A model generated the notes under the pieces. That model saw nothing but the letters and a program-made list of their open reading frames with translations. It had not been told where the DNA came from and did not search any database. A stretch of DNA of 64,000 nt, from assembly GCF_012911895.1 (NCBI RefSeq), contig NZ_JAAXCV010000028.1, positions 124,001-188,000 of the forward strand, written 5' to 3'. Below are positions 26,900 to 56,358 of this stretch, piece after piece (positions within the stretch are counted from its first letter, which is position 1; each line of letters begins with the position of its first letter). The position numbers and the translations under genes were made by a program. Source of the DNA: Bacillus sp. RO3. GTDB lineage: Bacteria; Bacillota; Bacilli; Bacillales; Bacillaceae_B.

Positions 26900-27097
26900 T
26901 TGACGAGTCCCAATCGTGCCGTCGCCATCATTTCCTTCGTTTTGAACCCGCTCTCGGCAGGTGGGTGCTTTATTCCACTATTTGTTAGTCCCCGGCACGG
27001 GGCATGAACGCCTAGCGGAAATGTCAAGCTCCCAAAGTTTGAAGTGTTCGGTCAAAACTGTTAGGTAAAAACGTCGCACACATCAGGACTCGTTTGT
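26900..27097 (-). ncRNA. ssrS: 6S RNA (SsrS, B. subtilis 6S-1/BsrA type)
   Basis: 6S RNA mimics an open promoter and sequesters sigma-A RNA polymerase. The minus-strand sequence contains segments familiar from B. subtilis 6S-1: GTTTTGACCGAACACTT, TTTGGGAGCTTG, TTCCGCTAGGCGTTCATGC, GGGGACTAACAAAT, GTGGAATAAAGCACCCAC and GAGAGCGGGTTCAAA. Its ends pair as CGAGTCC (27086-27092 region) with GGGACTCG (26903-26911), closing a rod-like molecule of about 195 bases. The locus between tcdA (yrvM) and aspS is the B. subtilis bsrA locus. Exact ends are estimated. Confidence 0.93.
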
Positions 27098-30274: not shown

Positions 30275-30545
30275 CAAAAAAAGCCCTCAGTCCCTTGTAT
30301 ACGATACAAGGGACGAGAGCTGTTATTCCCGTGGTGCCACCCTAATTGAAGTCTAGTCAGACTTCCACTTAACCAGTTAACGCCTGGTACGTCCATCTCC
30401 TACTAAAGAAACTCTTTCAGAGCGGAACCTCCCGAGTGTTCATTCACTAAGTCACATTGTAGAAACGCTCTCAGCCAAGGCATTTCCTCTCTTTACACGT
30501 GGGGTTTAGCTACTATGCTCGATCAACGGTATAATTAAATGTTAT
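30275..30545 (-). promoter_or_regulatory. T-box leader of hisS-aspS
   Basis: The antiterminator element AGGGTGGCACCACGG is on the minus strand at 30328-30343. It is followed by the terminator stem AGCTCTCGTCCCTTGTATC / GATACAAGGGACTGAGGGCT plus T7 (30275-30321). The upstream part has the stem I region with a GAGAGC distal-loop motif. A CAC (His) codon at 30436-30438 in GAACACTC is the best specifier candidate. A GAC (Asp) also occurs upstream, in TGTGACTTAG, so specificity is not certain. Confidence 0.92.
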
Positions 30546-49829: not shown

Positions 49830-50030
49830 CTATTTGAATCGTCCAATGATATAAAAGACAACGGAAAGTATAACACTTAACAGAATAGAAGTCATAAGTG
49901 GAAAATAAAATGTTGTATTTTCTTTTTTAATGATAATGTCTCCAGGAAGCTTACCAATTTTGATGAACTGCATGAGGAATCCGATCATAAGAATGATTCC
50001 ACCTATAATCATGAGTAATTTTCCCGTCAA
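49830..50030 (-). CDS. DUF2905 family small membrane protein
   Basis: A 66-residue protein with two hydrophobic helices ([39 protein letters not shown]) joined by a [19 protein letters not shown] loop, the DUF2905 signature. Start TTG at 50030 overlaps the ruvB stop (TTGA), with GGAGG 10 bases upstream. Conserved between ruvB and queA in Bacilli; function unknown. Confidence 0.88.
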
Positions 50031-51028
50031 TTGTCCGGCACCTCCAATTGGAAATGGTCATATACAAGATGTGTCACAACCCTTCCCCTTGGCGTTCGTT
50101 GGATAAATCCGATCTGCAGAAGGTAAGGCTCGTAGACATCTTCAATCGTGTGTGACTCTTCGCCTATACTTGCAGCGATCGTATCAAGCCCTACCGGTCC
50201 CCCCCTGAAGCGTTCAATGATTCCTTTAAGGAGCTTATGATCGATATGATCCAGGCCAAGCTTGTCCACTTGAAGGAGTTCAAGGGCTTCCCCGGAGAGG
50301 GTGGTGGTAATATCCCCATTGCTCTTCACCTGAGCAAAATCCCTCACCCTCCGCAATAATCGATTGGCAATCCGGGGGGTTCCCCTCGATCTCCGGGCCA
50401 ATTCTTCAGAGGCAGCAGATTCGATTCTGGTATTTAGAATCGCCGCTGTCCGTTGAACAATTTCATTCAGCTGCTCTTCATTATAATATTCCAATCGGCA
50501 TAAAACTCCAAATCGATCACGCAGCGGGGCTGATAAAGCACCGGCGCGTGTCGTTGCTCCCACCAATGTGAATGGGGGAAGATCTAAACGGACAGACCGC
50601 GCACTTGGACCGTTCCCGATCACAATATCCAAACAAAAGTCCTCCATCGCCGGATATAGAACTTCTTCAATGGCCCTCGGCAAGCGATGAATTTCATCGA
50701 TAAACAACACATCCCCGGGTTCGAGTGCCGTCAGAACGGCAGCTAAATCCCCAGGTCTCTCGATGGCAGGCCCCGATGTAGTGCGGAGGTTCACACCCAT
50801 CTCATTTGCGATGACTGCGGCAAGGGTCGTTTTACCCAATCCGGGTGGACCGTATAGGAGTACATGATCCAGGGTTTCCTGACGCATTTTTGCCGCTTCA
50901 ATGAAAACCTCAAGATTATGCTTTACTTTATCTTGCCCAATATATTGTTTTATTGTCTGGGGACGCAGGGAATATTCAAAAGAATCTTCATTTAACTCCG
51001 ATTCCCCCGATACGATTCTATCTTCCAT
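50027..51028 (-). CDS. ruvB: Holliday junction branch migration helicase RuvB
   Basis: A 333-residue AAA+ motor. Walker [14 protein letters not shown] near 59-71, Walker [13 protein letters not shown], sensor-1 [20 protein letters not shown] (with arginine finger), and the winged-helix C-terminus [42 protein letters not shown] are all intact. It follows ruvA by 15 bases and should share its SOS-type control. Confidence 0.98.
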
Positions 51029-51043
51029 TTAGACTTCCTCCTT

Positions 51044-51655
51044 TTATTTCAATAGGAGCTGAAGAGCTTTTCTGATGATTTCGTCTGATGTATGCCCTTC
51101 CCCTTTTAACTTTGGAGTGATCTTCTTGATTTCCCGTTCAGAGTAGCCCAGTGCCTTAAGAGCAAGAATCGCTTCGTCAAAGGCCTCGTCCTTACCAGTG
51201 GACACTCCGGCTTCCTCGGGATCCGAGAATAAGCTTGGAAAATAATCAGGCACAACATCCTGAAGCTTCCCTTTCAAGTCAAGGATCATTTGACGTGCTG
51301 TCTTCTTCCCTACACCGGGAAACTTTGTCAGAAAGCTCTCATTCTCTTCTTCAATGGCCGTGATCACCTGTTGAGGGGCTCCTGAGGCTAAAATCGCCAA
51401 TGCCCCCTTCGGACCGATTCCTGAAACATTTAATAGTTTCATAAACAGCAATTTCTCTTCAATCGCCAAAAAACCGTAAAGGGCAATAAGATCTTCACGA
51501 ACATGCTGATATGTAAAAATCTGAATCTCTTGATTTTGATATTTCGAATAAACAAACGGATTTGCCGTATACAGCTGGTACCCGATGCCATTATTCTCCA
51601 CTACCACATACTCAGGACCAACCTGACTGACCGTCCCTTTTATATATTCATACAT
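51044..51655 (-). CDS. ruvA: Holliday junction branch migration protein RuvA
   Basis: RuvA binds the four-way junction and loads RuvB. The 203-residue protein has an OB-fold N-terminal domain ([25 protein letters not shown]), tandem helix-hairpin-helix motifs ([37 protein letters not shown]) and the C-terminal domain III ([20 protein letters not shown]). GGGAGAG precedes the ATG. The 125-bp repeats start only about 15 bases upstream of the start codon. Confidence 0.98.
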
Positions 51656-51675
51656 ACTTTTCTCTCCCTATAAAA

Positions 51676-52062
51676 AATGCGCAGGCGGCTTGTTTAGCCC
51701 CGACAAGCATAAGATGAATGGACCAGGAAGGCGGTTTTTTGCCTTCATGGACTATTTAGCTTATGACCTCGAGGGGCTAGCCGCCGGAGCTGGACTATAA
51801 AATGCGCAGGCGGCTTGTTCAGCCACGACAAGCATAAGATGAATGGACCAGGAAGGCGGTTTTTTGCCTTCATGGACCATTTAGCTTATGACCTCGAGGG
51901 GCTAGCCGCCGGAGCTGGACTATAAAATGCGCAGGCGGCTTGTTTAGCCCCGACAAGCATAAGATGAATGGACCAGGAAGGCGGTTTTTTGCCTTCATGG
52001 ACTATTTAGCTTATGACCTCGAGGGGCTAGCCGCCGGAGGTGAATGATCAAAATGCGCAGGC
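51676..52062. repeat. Tandem array of three 125-bp structured units upstream of ruvA
   Basis: Units start at 51676, 51801 and 51926, each with AATGCGCAGGCGGCTTG; a fourth start, AAATGCGCAGGC, is truncated at about 52062. Units 1 and 3 are identical over the structured core; unit 2 differs at three bases in that core. Each folds as a long hairpin: GGCGGCT with AGCCGCC, AGCCCC with GGGGCT, CATAAG with CTTATG, and an inner GAAGGC/GCCTTC hairpin. A competing local stem GCTTGT/ACAAGC is possible. The array fills most of the 584-base gap between bofC and ruvA and holds no credible ORF. Confidence 0.95.
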
Positions 52063-52110
52063 AACTGATCCCCACGCATAAAAAGTCATATAAAACCTAT
52101 TGTATCATAC

Positions 52111-52146: not shown

Positions 52147-52160
52147 GAAACACCTGTTCT
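52147..52160 (-). promoter_or_regulatory. LexA (DinR)-type SOS box upstream of ruvAB
   Basis: The minus strand reads AGAACAGGTGTTTC, matching the B. subtilis SOS box CGAACRNRYGTTYC at all but the first base. It directly follows a TAAAAT -10-like hexamer (52162-52167), a usual place for repressor binding. B. subtilis ruvAB belongs to the LexA regulon. Confidence 0.75.
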
Positions 52161-52204
52161 TATTTTAACAGATTAAACCTGAATTGGGCAGAGAAAAATC
52201 CAAT

Positions 52205-52239: not shown

Positions 52240-52788
52240 TTATTTAGGAACCGAGTATGGTTTAAACTGTTCAAGGACCTCTTCATATTCCTGCTTTGAC
52301 TTTATAGGGATGCCATTGACTAAGTCATCATGGCGCTTGCTTTCAAGCTTCTCTATATCAATCTGAAAGAAAGACTGAATGATCTCTGCCTGCCCCGGTT
52401 TTCCATTAAAAATAGAAAGAACACCATTGTCAGAGATGCCGAAATATCCATTTGATTTTAATAACGGGGAAATGTCATCCATCCGTTTTTGAAAGACGAT
52501 TTCGTCATCTGTCATATCCATGAGCTGCCAGTCTTCATATGAAGCCCAGAAATCTTCCATGCTCCAAATCGTTTCCTGTACGATTTCCTCACTCACTTCA
52601 CCATCAAGATATACTCTCTCAAGTATTACTGTGACCGTGTGGGCAGATGTTACCTCTGCAGGCGTTCCGTTCAACTCCTCAAGAGATCCCCCATCAGCAG
52701 CCTGCTTTTCTTCTGAATAAAAGAATGTGAAGTAAAAAGCACCTATTAACAACATCACCATAAACACGATTCGAACCTTAATCGTCAT
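52240..52788 (-). CDS. bofC: Forespore signalling protein BofC
   Basis: A 182-residue protein. An N-terminal hydrophobic segment (about 5-24, signal or anchor) precedes the BofC domain: HTVTVILERVYLDGEVSEEIVQETIWSMEDFWASYEDWQL and a C-terminal domain with NGYFGISDNGVLSIFNGKP. In B. subtilis BofC lies in the intermembrane space and modulates SpoIVB signalling to pro-sigma-K processing. Start ATG at 52788, 6 bases after GAGGTG. It is beside ruvA as in B. subtilis. Confidence 0.92.
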   Translation of the reverse strand: MTIKVRIVFMVMLLIGAFYFTFFYSEEKQAADGGSLEELNGTPAEVTSAHTVTVILERVYLDGEVSEEIVQETIWSMEDFWASYEDWQLMDMTDDEIVFQKRMDDISPLLKSNGYFGISDNGVLSIFNGKPGQAEIIQSFFQIDIEKLESKRHDDLVNGIPIKSKQEYEEVLEQFKPYSVPK

Positions 52789-52914
52789 CGTGATCACCTC
52801 GAACTTTTTTATGTAACAATCTATTCAATAGTCTTGCCAAACCCTGTTAAGAATATCCAATCCTTGAATAATTTTTTGAGGTATATTTCTTTAAGAAGTC
52901 AAATTCCCCTAGTA

Positions 52915-54780: not shown

Positions 54781-56358
54781 TTAGCCTTCAAAGTCATCGT
54801 CATTTAAGTTAGGCATGGAAAAGGCTCTCGCCCCATACATTCCCTGCGGCATGCCCATTCCCTGACCTTGAGGCCCCATCGGCATTCCTTGACCAGGCAT
54901 TCCCTGCCCCATCATTCCCGGTCCATATCCGTATGGTTGTTGCTGCATTCCTTGAGGCATTTGTTGTGGCATCTGCTGGTGCATCATGGGATGATGCATC
55001 ATTGGTCCATACTGGGGTGCACCACATCCGCAATCACTTTGATCGCTTGCTCCCATTACTCCACTCGGCTGACCCATCGGCATCTGGCCTCCCATTTGGG
55101 CTCCCATCACGCCACTTGGTTGACCCATTGGCATCTGGCCTCCCATCTGGGCTCCCATTACTCCACTCGGCTGACCCATTGGCATTTGATATCCATTCAT
55201 CATTGGTGAAGACGGTGACTCTTCAGCCATTGCACCCTGTACTTGACCTCCCGGCCCCATCGGATACCCACCCGGCATTCCTCCTTGGAACCCAGGTCCA
55301 GGCATGACAGGGGAGACAGGATAACAATTTTGAGGATACATCATAGCCGGCGATGCCTGTTGTGGCATCTGAACGGATGGATAATCTTTCTCATCAGACA
55401 CACCCATTACACCGTTTGGCTGACCCATTGGCTGCTGCATTGGTTGCTGCATCGGCTGCTGCATCGGCTGCTGCATTGGCATTTGCATCGGCATTTGACC
55501 GTGCGGCATATATGGCATGACAGAGGATGATTCTTCATCATATCCCATTTGTGGCATCATGGGCATCTGCTGCATTCCGGGCATCGTAGAAGCCCCCTGT
55601 ACCGCGCTTCCAGGTCCCATTGGCATTCCTTGACCCATCGGCATTCCGTATCCTCCCGGTTGCATTCCTCCCCCATACGGAGCTCCGTAGCCGGGGCCCG
55701 GCATGACAGGTGATACAGGTACGCAGTTATTCGGATTATAATACATAGGCTGTGTGTTCCCTCCTTGTGGTTGTGTTGGCATTTGTAAACTTTCTTCTTT
55801 CTGAACACCTTGAACGGCTTCTTGTTTTGGTTTTGGTTTTGGTTTTGGTTTTGGCTGTTCTTTCGCTTTTGGAAGTACATTGGTAGGTTTAGGCGGCGTT
55901 TGAGGTTTTGGTTTTGGCTTCGCTTGTTGCATCGGTTGCTGCATCGGTTTCTGCATCGGCTGCTGCATTTGCATATTCGCCATATTCATCATGTAGTAAT
56001 TGTTTATATCGATTTCAGGCACTACTGGTTGAGGCATTTTAGGTGCAAATGGCTTTTGTGCTTCTTTCGGTTTTTCTTTCTTTGGCTCTTCGACTGGCAT
56101 GGCCATAGGCTTCTGCTCCTTGAACGGATGTTCGGCTTTAGGCATCTCCTTCTTAGGCATTTCCTTGGAACCGTATTTGATTTGTGTCTCTTTCTTTACG
56201 GATCCGCCTGTAGTAGGCACTTTAATTTTCATGCCAGGCATGATCATATCAGGGTTCGATAGCTGGGCATTCATCTGTTTCAACTCTTCGAAATTCACGC
56301 CGTATTTCTTGGCGATTTTCCAAAGAGTATCCCCTTTTTGAACAATATGGATTTTCAC
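54781..56358 (-). CDS. safA: Spore morphogenetic protein SafA (LysM domain)
   Basis: A 525-residue protein. Residues 1-50 form a LysM domain (MKIHIVQKGDTLWKIAKKYG) that targets peptidoglycan/cortex. A Lys/Pro/Glu-rich linker with KPKPKPKPK follows, then a Met/Gln/Pro/Gly-rich low-complexity region with QQPMQQPM and GQPSGVMGAQMG repeats and two NNC/QNC-xPVSPVMPGPG motifs. SafA scaffolds the inner spore coat in B. subtilis. Start GTG at 56358, 8 bases after GGAGG. The C-terminal part is poorly conserved in sequence but similar in composition. Confidence 0.92.
   Translation of the reverse strand: MKIHIVQKGDTLWKIAKKYGVNFEELKQMNAQLSNPDMIMPGMKIKVPTTGGSVKKETQIKYGSKEMPKKEMPKAEHPFKEQKPMAMPVEEPKKEKPKEAQKPFAPKMPQPVVPEIDINNYYMMNMANMQMQQPMQKPMQQPMQQAKPKPKPQTPPKPTNVLPKAKEQPKPKPKPKPKQEAVQGVQKEESLQMPTQPQGGNTQPMYYNPNNCVPVSPVMPGPGYGAPYGGGMQPGGYGMPMGQGMPMGPGSAVQGASTMPGMQQMPMMPQMGYDEESSSVMPYMPHGQMPMQMPMQQPMQQPMQQPMQQPMGQPNGVMGVSDEKDYPSVQMPQQASPAMMYPQNCYPVSPVMPGPGFQGGMPGGYPMGPGGQVQGAMAEESPSSPMMNGYQMPMGQPSGVMGAQMGGQMPMGQPSGVMGAQMGGQMPMGQPSGVMGASDQSDCGCGAPQYGPMMHHPMMHQQMPQQMPQGMQQQPYGYGPGMMGQGMPGQGMPMGPQGQGMGMPQGMYGARAFSMPNLNDDDFEG
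55049..55192 (-). repeat. 51-bp in-frame tandem repeats in safA
   Basis: Starts at 55049, 55100 and 55151 give an exact 51-base period, encoding three copies of a 17-residue unit (GQMPMGQPSGVMGAxxx). Further CAGCAGCCGATGCAG-type short repeats lie at about 55430-55500. Such repeats expand or contract by slippage. Confidence 0.85.

Follow-up and report, generated by a model that had tools for sequence, protein, structure and literature searches.

A tandem array of a 125-bp hairpin unit upstream of ruvA in Bacillus sp. RO3 and its order-wide, probably mobile family

Judged by description, the bcr1-bcr3 repeats of the Bacillus cereus group are nearest in kind to the repeat analysed here. They are described as MITE-like, interspersed, intergenic and foldable elements present in tens of copies, for which a mode resembling site-specific recombination has been proposed (PMC6542083, PMC3446304); bcr1 is reported to be restricted to the B. 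cereus group, and TTTAT motifs are given for bcr elements (PMC6542083). The 125-bp unit shares with them, as described, an interspersed and intergenic position, foldability, tens of copies and features of a mobile element, but it occurs order-wide, forms polar tandem arrays and has locus-typical linkers, differences drawn from descriptions and not from consensus sequences. REPs are given as 20-40 bp (PMC3733652). REP/REPIN elements with their RAYT enzymes, as described, resemble the unit in being palindromic, extragenic, of high copy number and arrayed, but the unit measures 125 nt and the PF01797 (RAYT) genes here lie beside other palindromes. Folding and clustering have yielded families of bacterial stem-loop sequences, some of them from Bacillus (e.g., Bhal-1, 74 bp), and the Bacillus families reported there are of sizes other than the unit, 72-76 and 167 bp (PMC2267715). 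Pneumococcal BOX and RUP are small interspersed repeats of a Gram-positive bacterium (PMC3049150). The unit is likewise a small interspersed repeat in a Gram-positive bacterium but belongs to another genus, the comparison being by description only. Integron attC/VCR sites are imperfect palindromes of about 120-130 bp that are folded on one strand and stand in arrays. The likeness to the unit lies in size, one-strand folding and arrays, but no gene cassettes lie between the units here, and no attC core motifs were seen by eye.

The array between a LexA-like box and ruvA

The window analysed is a stretch of 64,000 nucleotides from the Bacillus sp. RO3 genome. An earlier note had described a 125-base triplicate with a truncated fourth unit, and Tandem Repeats Finder run on the window agreed, reporting 51674-52062 with a period of 125, 3.1 copies and 95% matches. 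The array and its surroundings comprise the following features:

50027..51028, minus strand: ruvB, 333 aa
51044..51655, minus strand: ruvA, 203 aa, with matches in 31 of the 31 genomes of the genus sample
51662..51668, minus strand: GGGAGAG, likely ruvA ribosome-binding site between the array and the ATG, read by eye
51674..51797, plus strand (the unit's + orientation, antisense to ruvA): repeat unit 1, from repeat finder, HMM and fold
51799..51922, plus strand: repeat unit 2, with three substitutions relative to the core common to units 1 and 3
51924..52046, plus strand: repeat unit 3, its final bases being GGAGGTGAATG instead of the usual GGAGCTGGAC
52050..52062, plus strand: 3' tail, a clear 5' fragment of unit 4 (13 nt)
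52097..52109, minus strand: TATGATACAATAG, possible -10 region of a second promoter upstream of the array, read by eye and kept in many relatives
52147..52159, minus strand: LexA-like box, from conservation, place and a loose pattern
52162..52167, minus strand: TAAAAT, possible -10 of an SOS promoter beside the LexA-like box, read by eye
52240..52797, minus strand: upstream gene, bofC-like, with a match upstream of ruvA in all 30 loci examined

We take the 203-aa and 333-aa genes to be ruvA and ruvB from their proteins; the upstream gene is called bofC-like by its position, and the LexA box consensus is likewise our assumption. By eye, a degraded remnant of unit 4 perhaps extends to about 52087. 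The identical core of units 1 and 3, the three differences in unit 2 and the location between the LexA-like box and ruvA were all as the note had read them; the array lies 18 nt from the ruvA ATG at 51655. The LexA-like core GAACARRYGTTT was seen by eye in the ruvA intergenic region of this genome and of 29 relatives. With the loose LexA pattern the window had 7 hits where 4.1 were expected, so that the box is supported by its conservation and position and not by the number of pattern matches. The sole zero-mismatch match to a loose LexA-type pattern in the window lies at 56122-56133 (+). A consensus promoter scan reported neither of the two -10 regions read by eye and yielded within the array only two weak promoter-like matches, against an expectation of 0.9; the scan for intrinsic terminators had no match in the array. 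Conservation suggests a transcription start upstream of the array, in which case the leader of ruvAB would measure about 440-500 nt. Elsewhere in the window, Rfam matches above the gathering score mark a T-box leader (30306-30535, minus strand) and 6S RNA (26903-27092, minus strand), and short tandem repeats with periods of 6, 12, 24 and 51 cluster at 55049-55968, perhaps in a gene for a repetitive protein.

The array site was compared in 29 relatives. Units lie upstream of ruvA in six of them (G041, G046, G001, G020, G043 and G044, near-complete in the last), a fragment only in G004, and no unit match was found upstream of ruvA in the other 22. G041, which belongs to the same species, has two units at this site against the three here; the unit of G046 lies inside a copy of a second repeat, R2; and those of G001, G020, G043 and G044 stand at almost the same place as the array. 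Several relatives carry R2 or a third repeat, starting near AGCTCTGTCACGAAAA, at the ruvA site instead. Units are thus not conserved at ruvA among the relatives.

Fold and covariation of the unit

In + orientation the unit starts with GAAAAGCGG, continues with outer, middle and inner stems and ends with GGAGCTGGA(C/T); next comes a linker, a few bases long, which tends to be characteristic of each locus. The hairpin claimed for each unit proved far more stable than shuffled sequences: unit 1 gave z -5.9 on the + strand, and units 1-3 gave z -6.2, -6.0 and -5.3 on the ruvA-sense strand. Of the two strands, the + strand, opposite to the ruvA mRNA, preserves pairing better, and it was the more stable one in 60 of the 60 own-genome copies.

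Covariation was assessed in an own-genome alignment of the 60 full-length copies among 98 nhmmer matches. We found that 23 of 36 consensus pairs were changed on both sides, with 95.8% of cells pairing; 0 of 500 shuffles reached the observed values, and pairing fell to 38-48% when the partner was slid by one column. Across genera, 32 of the 36 pairs were changed on both sides in an alignment made by fitting to the model, which includes some partial matches on the reverse strand. In a re-count from which rows of fewer than 100 letters had been removed, 97 copies paired at 95.3%, with G-U in 250 cells and A-C in 15; setting aside eight loci from Rossellomorea or unassigned Bacillus left 67 copies, which paired at 94.0% (G-U 150, A-C 11). 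The same bias appeared in the own genome, with 185 G-U against 15 A-C cells, or 45 against 14 without the three columns in which G-U is the rule. The asymmetric internal loops (CGACAAG versus GACCTCGAG) stayed conserved and unpaired. Compensatory changes exceeding both the shuffle and the slide controls, as looked for in a structured RNA or a folded single-stranded DNA, are thus present.

Dispersal, polarity and change of the units

BLAST gave 67 matches to the unit in about 40 intergenic arrays of the own genome (G000), a lower bound in a 4.22-Mb draft of 34 contigs in which unit numbers may be collapsed. All 67 lay within arrays, in an incomplete list for which 40 of 54 candidates were scored and to which at least one further copy belongs. 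An HMM applied to the fetched own loci gave 98 matches, some of them weak; removal of the weakest left 41 clusters, among which at least C15:136417 is spurious, and a later model search added a copy at C20:239473, making the earlier counts lower bounds. Two of 40 own clusters lie inside an open reading frame of at least 90 aa, and the unit is 125 nt long. Many dispersed copies without coding capacity, as looked for in a MITE-like element, are thus present.

A search of the genome and its relatives with a covariance model, which the earlier note had proposed, extended the family beyond the some 40 own sites. The model R1 matched 183 of 249 order genomes, own genome included, in 78 of 105 genera, at most 14 candidates being scored per genome and filters being stricter on large samples. 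In a phylum sample it matched 3 of 249 genomes, namely the own genome, another from its order and a third from its class, and gave no match in a further same-order genome; outside the order, about 1 of some 246 sampled phylum genomes matched, an estimate in which the 226 non-matching genomes are counted without listed kinship. Named carriers include Rossellomorea, Cytobacillus, Metabacillus, Peribacillus, Siminovitchia, Neobacillus and Jeotgalibacillus, among the 80 stretches listed of at least 116; going by these names, the window probably comes from Rossellomorea. From these named loci, the counts of orientation, neighbour genes and polarity used at most the first 80 stretches, and one analysis used 43. 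G256, a single-contig genome of the same genus, gave no R1 match in an otherwise unit-rich genus; it may be a unit-free strain or a different lineage. A record labelled Pseudomonas sp. ISL-84 (L220) contains the unit twice, which suggests a mislabelled genome of this order. Against Rfam 15 the array had no gathering-score match, and at E up to 5 the one 10-bit match lay outside the array; no description of the 125-bp unit was found among the papers listed in searches of the open-licence PMC literature. Among mobile-DNA records, plasmids gave one record with the unit, viral contigs one stretch with the exact core pattern and phage records none, so that spread by phages or plasmids finds little support.

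The arrays show polarity. In 83 of 139 of them the last full unit is succeeded by a 5' fragment, comprising 28 of 34 in the own genome, 24 of 27 in G041 and 31 of 78 in the named set, in which the polarity is much weaker than in the two same-species genomes; the opposite truncation was seen in 0, 0 and 3 arrays, respectively. Arrays no more than 150 nt from a locus edge or without a full unit were left out of this count, and 18 of the 83 tails were assigned by a short sequence pattern alone. Tail ends placed by the HMM fell at model positions 38-51 in 11 of 23 own, 10 of 22 G041 and 4 of 20 named cases.

Orientation was examined against neighbour genes, taken as open reading frames of at least 90 aa without annotation; four overlapping own loci were dropped from the orientation and polarity counts. 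The + strand was antisense to both co-directional neighbours in 55 of 73 cases. Negative GC skew of this strand was found in 33 of 40 clusters of the own genome, in 61 of 87 from the named loci and in 27 of 35 cases with convergent or divergent neighbours. The P values for these counts are optimistic, because one genus contributes several of the named loci and some of the sites are orthologous. Along G041, among the matches listed (23 stretches), 5 of 5 stretches were + at 0.47-0.99 Mb, 11 of 11 were - at 1.18-2.63 Mb and 5 of 7 were + at 3.44-4.0 Mb; in G017, also among the matches listed, strands look more mixed. Unit orientation seems to follow replication direction, with which gene direction is confounded.

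Comparison of the own genome with G041, listed at 10% contamination, showed that unit number differed at 20 of 29 sequence-compared loci (16 of 24 paired by flanks and 4 of 5 more), L015, L020, L027 and L037 being kept outside this comparison for contig ends or ambiguous pairing; of six further loci compared by spacing alone, one differed. The clean case is L013, where a unit at C17:31182 of the own genome is missing from G041, in which GGGACAGG directly joins TGAGAC. The difference is 125 nt, there is no target duplication, and the G041 site is free of unit fragments. An insertion polymorphism between close relatives, as looked for in MITE-like elements, thus exists at L013. Other loci have duplication-like junctions of varying length, and at five loci one genome holds only a fragment (about 31 to 113 nt) and the other full units; at L010, where G041 retains only a fragment, recombination seems to have removed units. 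Sister units within arrays are often 97-100% identical and stand in orders such as ABAB or ABCABC, and copy changes inside arrays are mostly local. Other unit types match units elsewhere at about 86-98%, and foreign-type unit bodies occur between locus-typical junctions (e.g., L130 in G041). Such foreign bodies with local junctions fit either target duplication on insertion or gene conversion. Only at some loci does the left flank look like the linker.

The L013 insertion lies inside a copy of R2, an abundant palindromic repeat of about 175 nt by eye (GTTGATTGGAGCGGAAGGTGCTCG...) that frequently harbours the 125-nt unit at a constant position. R2 was seen at L050, L053, L054, L056 and L065 (upstream of ruvA), at L310-L323, L326 and L329, and at L013 and L042 of the own genome; units within R2 are also found at L013, L042 and in G046. 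Among 20 stretches from G021 and G017, 13 had one unit within R2 flanks, 3 were empty and 4 had no motif, with all nine stretches picked for a nearby unit being positive against 4 of the 11 others. Given the shared junctions, many R2-nested units are probably copies of a few composite elements and not separate insertions.

We searched for an enzyme that might move the unit. PF01797 had matches in all 25 genus genomes searched. The three own PF01797 genes (L135, L136 and L137, on C25, C16 and C4) each have their own short palindromes on both sides, e.g. TTTACCTGTTAAAA or GAGGGACGGACCT, unrelated to the unit, and the gene on C25 has an internal stop. Eight scanned stretches of 3-4 kb around such genes in G000, G003, G012 and G017 yielded no unit, and three genomes without a PF01797 match, G030, G036 and G037, nevertheless carry 1, 4 and 9 units. 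In these stretches the repeat thus does not flank the RAYT gene, and it also occurs in genomes without a RAYT match. PF00078 (reverse transcriptase) had one match in the own genome and none in 23 of 41 genomes, including the unit-rich G014, G015 and G019-G024. There was no clear recurrent neighbour gene: the largest cluster (30 loci) was, by its look, a translation of the unit itself, the next two clusters held 4 loci each, and 3-locus clusters resembled the same site in related genomes. Among the PF01797, PF00078 and neighbour-gene candidates, no mobilising enzyme was identified.

A probable mobile hairpin and the competing explanations

The unit is dispersed, its hairpin is conserved and covaries, it is polymorphic for insertion within the species, its arrays expand and contract, and their anatomy is polar. 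We regard it as highly probable that these order-wide structured, interspersed repeats have spread as a mobile element. The best explanation of the locus, which we hold to be probable, is that the 125-bp unit is a mobile hairpin element of the non-autonomous kind and that recombination subsequently alters its arrays. The unit would have reached the ruvA leader by insertion. Its folded + strand, as single-stranded DNA, might be recognised in trans by a host or helper enzyme; this single-strand, trans-acting part we consider somewhat less likely than not. Insertion may prefer sites of the kind in which a few bases come after GGA(C/T), as read from few loci, and the unit's own end, AGCTGGAC, would offer the same target, so that new units would join old ones head to tail; homologous recombination between units would then add or remove units. 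The array would merely lengthen the 5' leader of ruvA by about 390 nt, any effect on ruvAB being a side effect. A more far-reaching proposal, to our minds speculative and somewhat unlikely, is an order-wide class of mobile hairpins that move as a strand-specific folded single strand by shared machinery, target their own end and write polar, locus-tagged arrays, the enzyme being neither a RAYT nor a reverse transcriptase.

Of the readings offered by the earlier note, a mobile REP/MITE-like unit is supported by the some 40 intergenic sites, and a leader or repair device specific to ruvA is not supported by the comparison with relatives. The note had also held that many unrelated sites without compensatory changes would point to a selfish repeat only; the many sites are there, but compensatory changes are abundant. 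On the leader reading, ruvA-sense hairpins would control transcription, stability or translation of ruvAB, perhaps under DNA damage. The array indeed lies between the LexA-like box and the nearby ruvA start, the ruvA-sense RNA folds well too, and four relatives hold units at almost the same place. That most of the 29 relatives lack a unit there (one of the six carriers having it within R2), that the same species has two units for three, that the unit recurs throughout the own genome, that pairing is better kept on the opposite strand and that the scan gave no intrinsic terminator make this highly improbable; a ruvA-specific role is not supported by six carriers, 22 relatives without a match and some 40 other own sites. 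The + strand might instead be a functional structured RNA of the host, such as a small, antisense or protein-binding RNA, retained because of its role, its multiplication being secondary. In its favour are the very strong covariation around unpaired parts that stay conserved, the large excess of G-U over A-C on the + strand and a distribution over most of the genera sampled in the order, but units are mostly antisense to their neighbours, so that read-through yields mostly the other strand, copies come and go within the species, and folded single-stranded DNA, in which G-T also pairs, predicts the same covariation; we consider it distinctly unlikely. Template-switch correction of imperfect palindromes can make compensatory changes, and the hairpin symmetry could be its by-product without selection. 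The asymmetric loops nevertheless stay conserved and unpaired, and G-U is favoured on one strand, leaving this account extremely improbable and already disfavoured.

How the copies spread has been weighed in the same way. Gene conversion could account for the foreign unit bodies and even for the L013 polymorphism, and units might have spread without any transposition: arrays would exchange them by homologous recombination and gene conversion, and looped-out units would re-enter where fragments had been left. Whole-unit copy changes, the ABAB and ABCABC orders and the recombinant-looking L010 fragment of G041 agree with this, leftover fragments being possible landing sites; yet the L013 site in G041 has no unit fragment (R2-R2 recombination being possible there), and arrays at many unrelated sites need another process for their founding insertions, so we think recombination alone unlikely. 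A hairpin, preference for one strand and head-to-tail arrays are REP-like traits, and PF01797 in every genus genome searched would agree with a REP/REPIN moved by a RAYT (Y1 tyrosine) transposase. Such a mover is very unlikely, given the other palindromes beside the own PF01797 genes, the eight stretches around such genes without a unit and the three unit-bearing genomes that lack a PF01797 match. Copying of RNA by target-primed reverse transcription would give one-sided truncation, as in the 5'-anchored, 3'-truncated tails that far outnumber the opposite type in all three sets. Leftover founder copies explain these tails too, and more than half of the genomes, several of them unit-rich, have no PF00078 match; we give a retroelement hardly any credence.

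Present in three quarters of the genera sampled in a large bacterial order and missing from Rfam 15, the strongly covarying hairpin would be a widespread, unexplained component of these genomes. Unit number changing within a species at most of the compared loci would make it a source of variation in promoters and leaders, here that of ruvAB, and a marker for typing. The mover, once found, would show either a new host-encoded route of single-strand transposition or a selfish use of recombination.
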